DNA of 64,000 nucleotides. Source: an uncultured Bacteroidales bacterium. Its GTDB lineage: Bacteria; Bacteroidota; Bacteroidia; Bacteroidales; UBA932. The notes beneath the pieces are model-generated. The model saw nothing but the letters and a program-made list of their open reading frames with translations, was not told the DNA's origin and did no database searches. The stretch spans positions 1-64,000 of the forward strand of contig ONEX01000020.1 in assembly GCA_900316955.1 (NCBI GenBank), in the 5' to 3' direction. The position numbers and the translations under genes were made by a program. Positions 41,652 to 47,853 of this stretch are shown here, piece after piece (the first letter of the stretch is position 1; every line of letters starts with the position of its first letter).

Positions 41652-42569
41652 TTACTCCGACATATTCTTCACGTGCTTCGGGATGGGGAGGTCGCCGAAG
41701 CCGAAGAGGCGGCGGGCGTTTTCGCCGAGGAACTTCGCCTTCTCCTCGTCGGTCAGGAGCGGGCTCTTGACGATGAAGTCGTAGGACATCTTGTAGGTGA
41801 TGGCGGTGATGGTGCGGGGGTAGTCGGAGCCCCACATCAGCTTGTCGAAGCCCACTTCGTCCGCCGCTTCCCGGATGGCCTGCACGGCTGAAGGGAAGGG
41901 GTAGAATTCGTCGTTGAAGAGCCAGGTGATGCCGCCGCATTCCACATAGACGTTTGGGTGGCGGGCCAGGCGGATCTGCTCCATCCAGCCGGGCCGGGTG
42001 ACCATCCCGAAGTGGCCGATCAGGATGCGGAGCCGGGGAAATGCCGCGATAACCGATTCCATTTCAGCGACTTGCAGGTCGCCGTCGGCCAGTTCCACGT
42101 GCAGGATCATGTCCCGGTCCTCCATCAGGCGGAACATCTCCATCATCTCCGGACTGTCCAGCCGGACACGGCCTTCCGGCAGCAGGAGCCGGGCGGCGGG
42201 GATCTTGATGCCGCGGAAGCCGCGGCCGACGAGTTCCTCTGCCTCGGCCAGGAAACCGGGCTTGCGGAACTCGCACATCCCGAACACGAAGAACCGCTCC
42301 GGATACCGCAGCTCCACTTGCTCCAGGTAATCGTTCTGGAGGCCGTCGATGAACTCCTGGGTGACGACGGCGGCCGAGACCTGCGCGTAGTCCATGTTCG
42401 ACAGGAGCACCTCGGCGGTGTTCCGGCCGTCGATCAGGAAGGGCGGAAGCATCTGGACTTCCGTGCCCATGAACAGGCACCGGCCGTTCGGGAGCGGCCG
42501 GATCTCCTTTCCGTTCACGACGGCTTCCTGCCGGAGCCACAGGTGGCAATGGGCGTCGATAATCAGCAT
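41652..42569 (-). CDS. amidohydrolase-family lactonase-like protein (COG3618-type)
   Basis: 305 aa, (beta/alpha)8 amidohydrolase-2 fold. Metal-site candidates are DAHCHLW near the N-terminus, His in LIGHFGM, and Asp in MWGSDYPRTI near the C-terminus. The family includes L-fucono- and L-galactono-lactonases. With an L-galactose-dehydrogenase-like reductase and a Zn-dehydrogenase directly upstream, opening of a sugar lactone is the likeliest role; a decarboxylase activity cannot be excluded. Start at 42569 (MLIIDAHCH) chosen because the first strand begins there. Confidence 0.8.
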   Translation of the reverse strand: MLIIDAHCHLWLRQEAVVNGKEIRPLPNGRCLFMGTEVQMLPPFLIDGRNTAEVLLSNMDYAQVSAAVVTQEFIDGLQNDYLEQVELRYPERFFVFGMCEFRKPGFLAEAEELVGRGFRGIKIPAARLLLPEGRVRLDSPEMMEMFRLMEDRDMILHVELADGDLQVAEMESVIAAFPRLRILIGHFGMVTRPGWMEQIRLARHPNVYVECGGITWLFNDEFYPFPSAVQAIREAADEVGFDKLMWGSDYPRTITAITYKMSYDFIVKSPLLTDEEKAKFLGENARRLFGFGDLPIPKHVKNMSE

Positions 42570-42573
42570 GGTA

Positions 42574-43506
42574 TCAGGTGTTTGACCAGGAAACGCGGAA
42601 CTGGTCGCCGATGATTTCCCGCACTTCCTGCACGAGCTGCAGGTCGATGGGCTCGTCCATATAGGCGACGTTCTTCCGGAGGTTTTCCGGTTTGGTGGTA
42701 CTGAACAGGGTGGAGGCGATGCGCGGGTTCTGCAGGGAGAACTGCATCGCGAGCTTCTCGATGGGGTAGTCCTTGGCGGCGCAGTGCGAGGCGGCGCGCT
42801 TGCAGGCATCCACCAGCGCCTTTGGCGCGGGATGCCAGGCCGGCACGCCCCGCTGCGTCAGCAGCCCCATCGAGAACGGCGACGCGTTGATGACGCCGAT
42901 TCCCCGCTCCTCGAAGAAATCCAGAAAATCCACCAGCTTGTCGTCGTTCAGGCAGTAATGGCAGAAATTGAGCACGCTTTCCACCGTTCCGGCGGGCACA
43001 TGTTCCACCATCCACTTCAGGTTCTCGAGCTGCAAGTCCGTGATACCCACGTGCTTGACGACGCCTTCCTCGCGAAGCTTGACAAGCGCCGGAAGCGTCT
43101 CGCCGGCGACCTGTTCGAGGTCCGAGAACTCGATGTCATGGACATTGATCAGGTCCACATAGTCGATGTGCAGGCGCTCCATGCTCTCATATACGCTGCG
43201 GGTGACGCGTTCGGCGGAATAGTCCCAGGTGTTGTGCCCGTCCTCGCCGTAGCGGCCCACTTTCGTGGACAGGAAGAACTTGTCCCGCGGGATGTCCTTC
43301 AGGGCTTTCCCGAGGACGGTCTCGGCCTTGTAATAGCCGTAGTACGGGGATACGTCGATGAAGTTGATGCCGGCGTCGATGGCGGCGAAAACGGCCTCGA
43401 CGCCCCTGGCCTCCTCGAAATCATGGAAGACGCCGCCCAGGGAGGACGCGCCGAAACCGATGGCGGACAGCCGCATGCCGGTCTTGCCCAATTCGCGATA
43501 GATCAT
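42574..43506 (-). CDS. aldo/keto reductase, L-galactose/L-fucose dehydrogenase-like
   Basis: 310 aa TIM-barrel oxidoreductase. YRELGKTGMRLSAIGFGASS opens the barrel; FIDVSPYYGYYKAETVLGKAL contains the catalytic Asp and Tyr; STKVGRYG supplies Lys. This sequence group includes plant and bacterial L-galactose dehydrogenases, which oxidise the C1 hydroxyl to a lactone. Context supports that: it is flanked by a lactonase-like and a Zn-dehydrogenase gene in one operon with short gaps (4 and 12 nt). The substrate is inferred, not shown. Confidence 0.82.
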   Translation of the reverse strand: MIYRELGKTGMRLSAIGFGASSLGGVFHDFEEARGVEAVFAAIDAGINFIDVSPYYGYYKAETVLGKALKDIPRDKFFLSTKVGRYGEDGHNTWDYSAERVTRSVYESMERLHIDYVDLINVHDIEFSDLEQVAGETLPALVKLREEGVVKHVGITDLQLENLKWMVEHVPAGTVESVLNFCHYCLNDDKLVDFLDFFEERGIGVINASPFSMGLLTQRGVPAWHPAPKALVDACKRAASHCAAKDYPIEKLAMQFSLQNPRIASTLFSTTKPENLRKNVAYMDEPIDLQLVQEVREIIGDQFRVSWSNT

Positions 43507-43518
43507 GGCGGGATGGTG

Positions 43519-44535
43519 TTAGAATTCAACGAGGATGCGGAAAACCTTGCCGGGGTTTTCATGCCAATGCCGCATGGCGTCCGCCGCTTCCTCCGGCTTG
43601 ACGACGGAAGAAATCAACTTGTCATACGGGCAGGTTCCGCGCTGCAGATACTCGATGACGGCCCGGAAATCCTCCGGACACGCGTTGCGGGAACCATAGA
43701 TGTTCAGTTCCTTCTTGACGAAATCGGGGGTGCGGAAGGTGGTCTGGTCCTTGGCGTAGCCGATGAAGACGACGCGGCCCGTGAAGCCGACGTTGGCGAT
43801 GGCCTGCCGCTGCGTCGCGGGCAGTCCCACTGCCTCGATGACGACGTCCGCCAGCAGCCCGTCCGTCAGTTCCGAGATGCCTTCCTGCACGTCCTCGTAG
43901 GCGGTATTGACCGTATATTTCGCACCGACCGCCTTCGCGACTTCCAGTTTCTCGTCGTCGATGTCCATCGCCACGACCGTCGCCCCGCGGAGCGCGGCCC
44001 CGATGATGGCGCCCATGCCGATCATCCCGCAGCCGAAGACGGCCACGACGTCTTTCTCCGTGACCTGGGCCCGGCTTACCGCATGGAAACCGACGCTCAG
44101 GGGCTCGACCAGGGCGCAGTCGCGGACTTCGATCCCCTCGGTCACGATGACTTTCTGCCAGGGAACCACGAAGAACTCCCGCATCGCGCCGTCCCGCTGG
44201 ACGCCCAGCGTCTCGTTGAACTCGCAGGCGTTGAAACGGCCGTTCCGGCAGGAGGCGCAGTGCCCGCAGGCGGTATAGGGATCGACGGTGACGGTCATGC
44301 CGGGGCGGAGCGTTTCGGGGACGCCGGGGCCCACGGCGGCAATCTCCGCGCCCACTTCGTGGCCGGGGACCACGCCCGCCTTCGCCATCGCGTTCCCGCC
44401 GCGCCAGGTGTTCAAATCGCTTCCGCAGAACCCGACGTAGCGGATCCGCAGCAGTACTTCTCCCGCTCCGCAAGCGGGTTTTTCCATTTCGATGACGTTC
44501 AGTTCGAACGGCTGGGTAATCTGGATTGCTTTCAT
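43519..44535 (-). CDS. zinc-dependent medium-chain dehydrogenase (L-galactonate dehydrogenase-like)
   Basis: 338 aa. Catalytic zinc site: Cys in GFCGSDLNTWRG and His-Glu in GHEVGAEI; structural zinc cysteines in CGHCASCRNGRFNAC. NAD binding: VFGCGMIGMGAI. It resembles sorbitol/L-galactonate/threonine dehydrogenase relatives. In the proposed order aldose, lactone, aldonate, keto-acid it would oxidise the aldonate. First gene of the three-gene operon, with a TATATTTG box (44543-44550) just upstream. Confidence 0.85.
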   Translation of the reverse strand: MKAIQITQPFELNVIEMEKPACGAGEVLLRIRYVGFCGSDLNTWRGGNAMAKAGVVPGHEVGAEIAAVGPGVPETLRPGMTVTVDPYTACGHCASCRNGRFNACEFNETLGVQRDGAMREFFVVPWQKVIVTEGIEVRDCALVEPLSVGFHAVSRAQVTEKDVVAVFGCGMIGMGAIIGAALRGATVVAMDIDDEKLEVAKAVGAKYTVNTAYEDVQEGISELTDGLLADVVIEAVGLPATQRQAIANVGFTGRVVFIGYAKDQTTFRTPDFVKKELNIYGSRNACPEDFRAVIEYLQRGTCPYDKLISSVVKPEEAADAMRHWHENPGKVFRILVEF

Positions 44536-44542
44536 AGTGACA

Positions 44543-44550
44543 CAAATATA
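44543..44550 (-). promoter_or_regulatory. -7 box TATATTTG for the sugar-oxidation operon
   Basis: Minus-strand TATATTTG, 7 nt before the dehydrogenase ATG. No consensus -33. Confidence 0.5.
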
Positions 44551-44604
44551 CGATTTCTTCCCGATTTGCCGTCATCTTGCAGATAGAGATTGGCGGAGAA
44601 TTGT

Positions 44605-44612
44605 TATATTTG
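44605..44612 (+). promoter_or_regulatory. -7 box TATATTTG for the M28 peptidase / Na-Pi operon
   Basis: TATATTTG, 7 nt before the ATG at 44620. No TTTG at 19-21 nt upstream. It would drive the peptidase and, 15 nt after it, the transporter-wHTH gene. Confidence 0.5.
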
Positions 44613-44619
44613 CATAATC

Positions 44620-45879
44620 ATGAAGAGAGTCTTGATACTGATTCTGCTGGCTGTCGCCGCCGTGCAACTGGACGCCCAGGATCTGACGCAGTACAAGAAG
44701 GTCGTCAAGGATCTGAGTTCCGCGCGGTTCCAGGGCCGCGGCTACGCCCGCGGCGGAGCCAACAAGGCCGGCAAATATCTGGAGAAAGCCTATCGCAAGG
44801 CCGGGGTCGATGCGGTCACCCGCCAGCATTTCACCCTGGACATCAATACGTTCGCCGGAGACATGAGACTTTCCGTCGATGGGCGGAAGATGGTTCCCGG
44901 GACGGACTTCACCGTCCGGGAGTACTGCCCGGGCGTGGAAGGGACCTATCCGCTGTATCACATCGACACCCTCCATTACGATGCCGCGAAGATTTTCAGC
45001 GACCTGGAGAAACCCGAGTACAAGGATGCGTTCGTCGTGTGCGATTTCTGGTTCACCTACAAGCATCGGGAAGACTTCCAGAAGCTCCAGAGCGCGGACG
45101 GTGCTCCGAATGCGGGCCTCATCCTCACCTGGGACGAGCCTTTGAAGTTCTACAAGGCCTATGGCGAGAAAGTGAACCCCAAGCCCGTCGTCTGGGTCCT
45201 GTCGAAGCAGATCCCCCGCGGTTCCCGGGAGATTACCGTGGACATCGACAACAAGTTCTTCAAGAACTACCAGTGCTTCAATGTGATCGCCTCCGTGGAG
45301 GGCGCCAGCCACGACAGCTGCTACGTGTTCACGGCCCATTATGACCACCTGGGCAACCTCGGGCGCCGGGTGTTCTATGCCGGGGCCAATGACAACGCCT
45401 CGGGCACGGCCGCCCTCGTTACCCTGGCCGCCTATTTCGCCGAGCATCGGCCCAAATACGACATGCTGTTCATCGCCTTCTCCGGCGAGGATGCGAACCT
45501 CCGCGGCTCGGAGTACTATGCCCAGCATCCGGTCTTCCCGCTGGAGATGATCCGGTATCTCATCAACGTGGACATGATCGGGGACAACAACCCGGTCCTG
45601 TACTGCGAGACCAGCGACCAGGGGCAGCGGGGCTTCGAACTGTTCGAGCGCATCAATGCGGAGAAGGGCTATTTCAAGTCCCTGAACCACGGCAAGCTGG
45701 CGGCGAACAGCGACCACTACCCGTTCGCCCAGCACGGGGTTCCCTGCATCTTCCTTGAAGATGAGGACGGCTCCGCCTTCCCGTTCTACCACACCCCGCA
45801 GGATAACTGGAAAAACGCCGTCTTCGACAGCTATGAACCCGTTTTCAAGTTGATCACGGACTTCATCGAACAATATTAA
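44620..45879 (+). CDS. M28 family zinc aminopeptidase
   Basis: 419 aa with a signal peptide (LILILLAVAAVQLDAQ). Co-catalytic zinc ligands are visible: His/Asp in FTAHYDHLGNL, bridging Asp in GANDNASGTAAL, Glu pair in FSGEDANLRGSEYY, Asp in NVDMIGDNN, and the last His in FYHTPQDNW. It removes N-terminal amino acids from peptides in the periplasm. The ATG at 44620 is preferred over the upstream in-frame ATG, which lies before the promoter box. It is followed after 15 nt by the Na/Pi transporter fusion, probably on the same transcript. Confidence 0.92.
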   Translation: MKRVLILILLAVAAVQLDAQDLTQYKKVVKDLSSARFQGRGYARGGANKAGKYLEKAYRKAGVDAVTRQHFTLDINTFAGDMRLSVDGRKMVPGTDFTVREYCPGVEGTYPLYHIDTLHYDAAKIFSDLEKPEYKDAFVVCDFWFTYKHREDFQKLQSADGAPNAGLILTWDEPLKFYKAYGEKVNPKPVVWVLSKQIPRGSREITVDIDNKFFKNYQCFNVIASVEGASHDSCYVFTAHYDHLGNLGRRVFYAGANDNASGTAALVTLAAYFAEHRPKYDMLFIAFSGEDANLRGSEYYAQHPVFPLEMIRYLINVDMIGDNNPVLYCETSDQGQRGFELFERINAEKGYFKSLNHGKLAANSDHYPFAQHGVPCIFLEDEDGSAFPFYHTPQDNWKNAVFDSYEPVFKLITDFIEQY

Positions 45880-45894
45880 TACAACCATATCCCT

Positions 45895-47853
45895 ATGCTT
45901 ATCGTCTTGAAACTTCTCGGCTCGATCGCCCTCCTGATCTACGGCATGAAAGTGATGAGCGAAGCCCTCCAGAAGATGGCGGGCCCGCAGCTGCGTCACT
46001 TGCTGGGCGCCATGACCACGAACCGCTTCTCCGGTGTCGCCACCGGTGCGCTCGTGACCGTCGCGGTCCAGTCCTCCGCCGCTACCACCGTGATGACGGT
46101 GTCCTTCGTGAACGCGGCGCTGCTCACGCTCACGCAGGCCATTTCCATCATCATGGGCGCGAACATCGGTACGACGATGAGCGCGTGGATCATGTCGGCG
46201 GGCTTTTCCTTCAACATGGCGGACGTGGTGTGGCCGGCCTTCCTCGCGGGCATCATCCTGATCCAGCTGGGCAAGCACCGCTACATCGGCGATTTCCTCT
46301 TCGGCCTCAGCTTCCTGCTGTTCGCCCTGGGCATGCTCAAGCAGACGGGTGTGGAGATGGACCTCGCCAGCAAGCCGGCTGTCGTCGCCTTCTTCTCGAG
46401 CTTCAAGACCAATTACGGGACCATCCTGCTGTTCCTGCTGATCGGCACGGTCCTGACGGCGATCGTGCAGAGTTCCGCTGCGCTCATGGCCATTACGATG
46501 GTCCTGTGCGCGACAGGAGCCATTTCCATCTACCAAGGTATCGCGCTGGTGATGGGTGAGAACATCGGCACCACGGTCACGGCGAACCTGGCCGCGATGA
46601 GCGCGAATACGCAGGCGCGGCGCACGGCTATGGCGCACCTGGTGTTCAACGTGTTCGGCGTCATCTGGGTGCTCATCTTCTTCTTCCCGTTCGTGCGGAT
46701 GGTCTGTGGCATCGTGGGCCTGGATCCCAACGCCGCCGAGCAGAATCCCACCCAGCTCTCTTTTGCGCTGGCGACTTTCCACACTTGCTTCAACGTGATC
46801 AATACAGCCGTCCTGATCTGGTTCATCCCGCAGATCGAGAAGCTCGTGTGCTTCCTGATTAAGCCCAAGAAGACCGAGGAGGAGGACGAGTTCCGCCTGC
46901 AGTACATCCGCGGCGGTATCATGAAGACCCCGGAAATCTCCGTCCTGCAGGCGCAGAAGGAGATCGTGGTCTTCGGCGAGCGGATGGAACGCATGTTCGG
47001 CATGGTGAAGGAACTCTACGGCACCCAGGACGAGCAGGCCTTCGACAAGCTCTTCGAGCGCATCAAGAAGGTCGAGGATATGAGCGACAAGATGGAGAAC
47101 GAGATCGGCCGCTATCTCGGCGAAGTGGGATCGGCCCACCTGTCCGACGACACGAAGCAGAAAATCCGCGCGATGCTCCGCCAGATCGGGGAGCTCGAGT
47201 CCGTGGGCGACAGCTGCTTCAACCTGGCCCGCATCCTGCGCCGCAAGCGGGAGAACAAGGTCGTGTTCGGCGAGGAACAGGAGGCCGGCGTGGCTGAGAT
47301 GTTCACCCTGATCGACGAAGCCCTGGCCCGGATGAACGAGTCCCTGGCCAACCGGCGGGAGAAGGTCTCCATCGTGGACTCCGAGGATGTCGAACGCCGC
47401 ATCAACCTCTGCCGGAACACGCTCAAGCAGAAGAACATCGAGAATCTGGACGCCCAGGTGTACGGGTACGACCTCGGCACCGTGTTCTCCGACCTCATCG
47501 GCGAGTGCGAGAAGACGGGCGACTACATCATCAACGTCGTCGAGGCCCGTCTGGGCGCTGTCCGCAACGGCATCCGTTTCCGCGGTCTGCAGATCGACCC
47601 GGACGCCAAGGAGGTTACCGTGGACGGGGAACTCGTGGAACTGTCCATCCACGAGTACAACCTGCTGAAGCTGTTCCTGGAGAACGTGGGCGAGACTTTC
47701 TCGGTGCAGGAACTGCACAAGAAGTGCTGGTCCGAGAATACGGCGACGAATGACCGGGTCGTGGAAACCTATATCAGCCGCCTCCGCCGCAAGATCGGCC
47801 CTTATGCCGAGAATGTGATCACCAAGGAAGGGGAGGGGTACTGCTTCCAGTAG
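45895..47853 (+). CDS. Na/Pi cotransporter - PhoU-like - OmpR-type winged-helix fusion protein
   Basis: 652 aa in one uninterrupted frame. Residues 1-322 are a NptA/SLC34-type transporter with the two inverted QSS repeats (VAVQSSAATTV, AIVQSSAALMA), each followed by a G-x-NIGTT motif. Residues ~345-555 are a charged helical PhoU-like domain (ERIKKVEDMSDKMENEIGRY, ECEKTGDYIINVVEARLG). Residues 562-652 read as a complete OmpR/PhoB effector domain: FRGLQIDPDAKEVTVDGELV, LSIHEYNLLKLFLENVG, the recognition-helix segment NDRVVETYISRLRRKIG, and the final ITKEGEGYCFQ wing. The transporter-PhoU pair is normal for the family, which usually ends near residue 560. The DNA-binding domain is not known to me in this family. 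PhoU is cytoplasmic, so the wHTH should face DNA. Confidence 0.9.
   Translation: MLIVLKLLGSIALLIYGMKVMSEALQKMAGPQLRHLLGAMTTNRFSGVATGALVTVAVQSSAATTVMTVSFVNAALLTLTQAISIIMGANIGTTMSAWIMSAGFSFNMADVVWPAFLAGIILIQLGKHRYIGDFLFGLSFLLFALGMLKQTGVEMDLASKPAVVAFFSSFKTNYGTILLFLLIGTVLTAIVQSSAALMAITMVLCATGAISIYQGIALVMGENIGTTVTANLAAMSANTQARRTAMAHLVFNVFGVIWVLIFFFPFVRMVCGIVGLDPNAAEQNPTQLSFALATFHTCFNVINTAVLIWFIPQIEKLVCFLIKPKKTEEEDEFRLQYIRGGIMKTPEISVLQAQKEIVVFGERMERMFGMVKELYGTQDEQAFDKLFERIKKVEDMSDKMENEIGRYLGEVGSAHLSDDTKQKIRAMLRQIGELESVGDSCFNLARILRRKRENKVVFGEEQEAGVAEMFTLIDEALARMNESLANRREKVSIVDSEDVERRINLCRNTLKQKNIENLDAQVYGYDLGTVFSDLIGECEKTGDYIINVVEARLGAVRNGIRFRGLQIDPDAKEVTVDGELVELSIHEYNLLKLFLENVGETFSVQELHKKCWSENTATNDRVVETYISRLRRKIGPYAENVITKEGEGYCFQ

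Follow-up and report, generated by a model that had tools for sequence, protein, structure and literature searches.

In the window analyzed here, a stretch of 64,000 nucleotides from an uncultured Bacteroidales bacterium, one gene on the forward strand (45895..47853) encodes a protein of 652 residues in which a sodium/phosphate cotransporter of the NptA type, a PhoU domain and a PhoB-type winged helix are joined in a single chain. This nptA-phoU-winged-helix fusion is real, conserved and under selection. The best reading, in our view, is a kinase-free, membrane-integrated, autoregulating phosphate transporter; we consider it probable, if well short of certain, that transporter, sensor and transcription factor act in one chain, which binds a repeat approximately 36 nt upstream of the -7 promoter element and sets its own transcription. 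Sequence evidence supports the fusion, the degree to which it is conserved and constrained, the origin that we consider likely, and the repeats together with their fixed place, and it points to the fusion's own gene as the likely target. No description of such a fusion was found in the titles and abstracts listed by searches of the open PubMed Central library, which omits most subscription journals.

The Na/Pi cotransporter part comprises residues 1-322 (45895..46860, forward strand; Pfam PF02690), and the NCBIfam profile TIGR00704 matches residues 1-325 with 221.8 bits, above its cut-off of 210.1. The Na_Pi_cotrans repeats are followed by the PhoU domain (residues 345-555; 46927..47559, forward strand), as is the order in NptA-PhoU cotransporters, and the QSSAA motifs are kept across a 13-row alignment; sodium-driven phosphate transport is predicted. 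The last PhoU helix ends at residue 553, and the winged helix (residues 556-652; 47560..47850, forward strand) starts a few residues later, with no receiver in between. The initial annotation had described one frame containing the cotransporter, PhoU and a complete winged helix, and had proposed a profile search of the C-terminal part; domain and fold evidence confirmed the description, and the search identified a winged helix of the PhoB output type, with residues 557-652 aligned to positions 130-225 of the profile NF053854 (E 1.1e-23). The protein as a whole scores 83.7 bits against this profile, under the 270-bit cut-off, and profile positions 1-129, which represent the receiver, are unmatched. 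The predicted recognition helix (residues 620-640; 47752..47814, forward strand) is changed in the window copy, where it reads RVVETYISRLRRKI; the paralogue and most clade B relatives have RTVDVNITRIRKKI. An AlphaFold model (pTM 0.47) does not fix the position of the winged helix relative to PhoU or the membrane.

The source genome (G000; 3.13 Mb, 38 contigs, 98.5% complete) contains a second full-length copy of the fusion (G000:C9:20465-22420), which is 80% identical to the window copy. A GTDB genome scan, from which the best 80 of 447 relatives were taken, gave 80 loci that all match the query across the junction, and in 80 of 80 the frame stays open there; five of these have a transporter part that is cut or broken, by contig edges in L066, L082 and L092, by Ns in L100 and by a frame change in L114. 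Among these best 80 of 447, the relatives with a title are Bacteroidales genomes assembled from metagenomes, chiefly those of ruminants, and the closest among the matches listed, RUG193, is 98% identical over the query. Within the genus, 40 of 250 sampled genomes carry the fusion, 39 over the whole query and one (G175) in part; in G216 and G051, it sits in short open frames. Beyond the genus, it occurs in one of 390 genomes of the order (G635), and in a phylum-wide sample of 395 genomes it was found in none except its own genome. The median omega over 93 fused-gene pairs (overall dS under 1, identity under 0.985; pairs non-independent) is 0.046 for the transporter, 0.096 for PhoU and 0.095 for the winged helix, with values of up to 0.79 in deep pairs; the winged helix of the window copy gives 0.117 against L055 and 0.134 against L056. 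By the medians, constraint on the winged helix equals that on PhoU. All title-bearing genomes being metagenome assemblies, an assembly join or a gene in decay had to be considered, and the initial annotation had advised looking for the same three-domain order in other genomes. That order is present there; given the 80 open junctions, the paralogue in the same genome and purifying selection, we reject both an assembly join and decay, and the chance of either is negligible. The neighboring genes vary among fused loci and provide no functional clue.

Many fused genes are preceded by tandem 11-bp direct repeats. A repeat with a spacing of 11 was detected in 27 of 68 non-redundant fused upstream regions, compared with a mean of 1.8 and a maximum of 6 in shuffles, and other spacings (8-10 and 12-15) were found in 1 to 7 of the 68; 98 of 126 upstream regions were kept for this count. 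Five of the 30 unfused upstream regions have the repeat (shuffle maximum 4), namely L026 and L027, which precede the nptA genes of G016 and G060 with phoB behind, and L028, L030 and L160. The half-sites are specific to clades: TTAAAAT/TTACAAT is present in 15 of 21 fused upstream regions of clade B (shuffle maximum 2), TGATAAA in 5 of 6 of clade C1 (maximum 3) and TTGTAAC in 6 of 8 of clade D (maximum 2), with near-identical upstream regions removed except in C1 and D. A point against the autoregulation reading is that many fused upstream regions lack a clear repeat: among the 15 other non-redundant ones, the best half-site occurs in 2, equal to the shuffle maximum of 2; half-sites in the 30 unfused upstream regions do not rise above shuffles.

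The place of the repeats is also kept: in 38 of 44 genes, the clade B box ends 36 nt ahead of the -7 element. The window and the loci retrieved contain 803 -7-like sites, of which 14 carry an exact 6-bp repeat of spacing 11 that ends 35-38 nt upstream, and spacings of 8-10 and 12-14 give 0 or 1. Such a repeat is found at 11 of 81 nptA or operon promoters, as labeled by a regular expression for the gene behind, versus 3 of 722 other sites; the underlying loci are centered on nptA, and several of the 11 are close relatives. The initial annotation had suggested that PhoB-like boxes be sought near homologues, and what emerged is this set of clade-specific 11-bp direct repeats. The E. coli Pho box has an 11-bp period. 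A PhoB-type repeat, with this period near the promoter, is found in clades B, C1 and D, and the window operon has a 6-bp repeat. In the available part of a report on the OmpR-family regulator PhoP, 7-bp repeats with a 4-bp spacer are described, that is, the same 11-bp period (PMC4832192); the available part of the B. fragilis PhoB paper contains neither 'TTGTAAC' nor 'direct repeat' (PMC3547664).

The window copy lies 15 nt downstream of a gene for a protease-like secreted protein (44620..45879, forward strand), which we take, by sequence recognition, to be an M28-type protease; the order of the two genes is kept in L054-L056, and they likely form one operon. The window fusion gene lacks both a promoter and a clade B box of its own, and the clade B box is also absent at the operon. 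The Bacteroidales -7 consensus is TAnnTTTG, and an element of this type, TATATTTG, is located at 44605..44612 on the forward strand. A candidate operator with an 11-bp direct repeat, CGATTT-CTTCC-CGATTT (44551..44567, forward strand), ends 37 nt before this element. Both CGATTT half-sites are kept in L054, L055 and L056, and the spacer and flanks vary; the repeat was noticed post hoc, and all four copies belong to closely related genomes. Its block overlaps the -7 region of a divergent gene, and this overlap may explain part of the conservation. The gene run divergent from the protease-transporter operon (41652-44586, minus strand) presumably encodes, by recognition, proteins resembling an amidohydrolase, an aldo/keto reductase and a zinc alcohol dehydrogenase.

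Whose operator these repeats represent can be judged from the distribution of the box across genomes. The clade B box, with at most 1 mismatch, gives 35 matches in 30 of the 250 genus genomes, compared with 7 for a reversed control pattern. Nine of the 35 are at fused genes, 11 lie next to phoB, nptA or PHO4-family transporter genes in relatives whose PhoB or nptA is separate, one is at a truncated nptA of 158 aa (G123:C3), and 14, of which 9 were examined, are without a phosphate gene seen, which is a further point against autoregulation. The boxes at phosphate genes of relatives would fit a winged helix that binds DNA and serves a wider Pho regulon, in which the repeat at its own gene is just one site, and the recognition helix is changed in clade A, as if targets had shifted. 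We nevertheless regard this explanation as unlikely: in G000, the exact clade B box occurs only once, at the promoter of the fused paralogue, and because a relaxed pattern gives 13 matches versus 9 in the control, we claim no further site in that genome. The clade B box also precedes canonical phoB genes in relatives, as expected if a separate PhoB-like regulator binds the repeats, with the fused domain as passenger or competitor, an explanation that the census of regulators makes very unlikely. In 30 of 40 fusion genomes, most of which are incomplete drafts, there are exactly as many Trans_reg_C matches as fusions, and the same holds for 14 of the 23 with a completeness of 90% or more; no other OmpR-type winged helix was therefore found in those 30. 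PhoB above the cut-off accompanies the fusion in 1 of 40 genomes and is present in 60 of 210 others (p 1e-4, relatedness not removed), and either the fusion or a full-length PhoB match (at least 236 bits) is present in 26 of the 30 box genomes versus 88 of 220 others (p 1e-6, relatedness again not removed). The only other Trans_reg_C match of G000 (G000:C1:1934-2149; L003 1025-1725) lies at one end of contig 1, in an OmpR-type response regulator that neighbors a histidine kinase; the receiver and winged helix of this regulator are in different frames, and it fits RprY as well as PhoB.

Another explanation is that the winged helix has lost DNA binding and serves the transporter as a module for protein-protein contacts or allostery, as may be the case for the winged-helix fold of FeoC beside FeoB. 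The membrane-near tail of a transporter is an awkward site for DNA binding, and the recognition helices differ among clades; nonetheless, clade-specific repeats at a fixed distance from the -7 element and the PhoB-like recognition helix retained in clade B make such a module quite improbable. The clade B box is found with 41 of 49 canonical recognition helices versus 5 of 44 others. In pairs independent by descent, helix and box varied in the same way in 2.2 and in the other way in 0.2 of 5, and the fused state and the box in 1.7 versus 0.5 of 7; both trends are weak, and neither comparison is significant with so few pairs (11 rows excluded, 90 with upstream regions used).

In the autoregulatory mechanism that we favor, the Na/Pi cotransporter part would import phosphate and the cytoplasmic PhoU domain would read transport or cytoplasmic phosphate. 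PhoU might then free or clamp the attached winged helix, which would bind the tandem 11-bp repeat, some 36 nt ahead of the -7 element, and thereby set transcription of its own gene or operon; two winged helices may be paired through transporter or PhoU dimers. From the position of the repeat, ahead of the core promoter, our guess is that transcription is activated at low phosphate. To judge from S. aureus and the gene order of relatives, PhoU in the older chain presumably acted through the kinase PhoR and the receiver PhoB, and deletion of the receiver would have coupled PhoU to the DNA-binding domain and replaced the nptA-phoB-phoR chain. We give even chances to the fuller proposal that a flux-driven change in PhoU frees or clamps the winged helix at its own repeat, that this single-protein loop took the place of a two-component system once the receiver had been lost, perhaps repeatedly, and that operator and recognition helix drift together between paralogues. 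The membrane-anchored regulator bypassing kinase and receiver, as proposed in the initial annotation, gains from the 11-bp repeats and from the 30 of 40 fusion genomes with no other OmpR-type winged helix, and its DNA binding is a step that we only infer. The available parts of three reports describe components of such a chain: the PhoU domain of S. aureus NptA modulates the PhoPR two-component system (PMC13170248), full pstC expression of B. fragilis at low phosphate needs PhoB (PMC3547664), and CadC, a membrane-integrated winged helix, binds its promoter without release and with a permease as co-sensor (PMC5936718).

The presumed ancestral arrangement is found in three related genomes (G016, G060 and G205), in which genes for a response regulator and a histidine kinase directly follow an unfused nptA-phoU gene; in G205, the start of the contig truncates nptA. 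At 334 and 332 bits, the regulators of G016 and G205 exceed the PhoB cut-off of 270 (response regulators over this cut-off stand in L049 and L194), and the kinases best fit Bacteroides PhoR at 344 and 334 bits, under the cut-off of 500 and with the front part of the profile unmatched. In a fourth genome, G105, nptA and PhoB matches are adjacent by profile search. In a winged-helix tree (88 of 127 rows kept, 97 columns, L003 excluded beforehand), the fused winged helices group, with modest support, with the PhoBs of G016, G060 and G205. These separate nptA-phoB-phoR genes and the grouping of the fused domain with their PhoBs make loss of the receiver domain of an adjacent response regulator the likely origin of the fusion, as had been conjectured from the window alone. 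Clade C stands beside G016/G060 (support 85) and the other fused clades beside G205 (support 81); since no support value reaches 95, two or more separate receiver losses are no more than a lead. In a tree of the NptA-PhoU part (107 of 130 rows kept after a 97% redundancy filter and removal of rows with fewer than about 450 profile positions; 77 fused, 30 unfused), unfused genes are scattered within the fused clade, with at least 9 state changes, 7 of them forced by starred branches, a pattern as after several losses of the fusion. A winged-helix profile run against the sequence 3' of 16 unfused nptA genes matched only L026 and L027, both with phoB behind; since remnants are thus not seen behind unfused genes, it is from the tree that these losses are read.

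Compared with known systems, the fusion shares the order of transporter and PhoU with S. aureus NptA (TIGR00704), which has no DNA-binding domain and, in the available part of the source, works through PhoPR (PMC13170248), whereas the fusion carries its own winged helix. The same source surveys 926 genomes and distinguishes NptA types that have PhoU from those that lack it; its available text uses none of the words 'fused', 'fusion' and 'DNA-binding'. Bacteroides-type PhoB (NF053854) represents the source family of the fused winged helix, with a tandem direct-repeat operator in common, but unlike PhoB/PhoR, the fusion has no receiver, phosphorylation site or in-chain kinase partner and is tied to a transporter. 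In ToxR and CadC, an OmpR-type winged helix acts from the membrane, as we propose for the fusion, and the available text reports that full-length CadC binds its promoter and that lysine is sensed via the permease LysP (PMC5936718). In these proteins, the DNA-binding domain is N-terminal, the membrane part is a single helix and the sensor is periplasmic, a layout that the fusion does not have; its winged helix is C-terminal behind PhoU, with a polytopic transporter in the same chain. By architecture, the fusion would combine a kinase-free sensor and a DNA-binding domain in one membrane protein, and our verdict is a new form of membrane one-component regulator with the transporter as sensor. In the FeoB/FeoC system, a winged-helix fold is likewise found beside a transporter, but operator evidence is absent for FeoC, which is not known to be a sequence-specific regulator. 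With PhoU wired straight to a DNA-binding domain, its own action could be tested in one purified or transplanted protein, for which the clade-specific repeats are ready DNA targets. The fusion would show a two-component system collapsing into one protein, with the presumed ancestral gene run, the fusion and its later losses all present in living relatives.

Several other repeats came to light in the same comparisons. A Pho-box-like repeat lies between divergent phoB and PHO4-family transporter genes in L246, L247 and L250, and the same repeat is present at phoB in L248 and L249; TTAARATWHTGTTACAAT is a candidate Pho operator of this group of relatives. In L253 and L259, the clade B box is located between a gene that we take, by recognition, to be UvrB-like and a gene for a 233-aa protein without a Pfam match. 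The box-linked protein of L258 was considered as a PhoU-like phosphate regulator and rejected, with no Pfam match at 1e-5. The upstream regions of L117-L119, L062 and L121, which belong to fused clades with changed recognition helices, contain other repeated or palindromic stretches.
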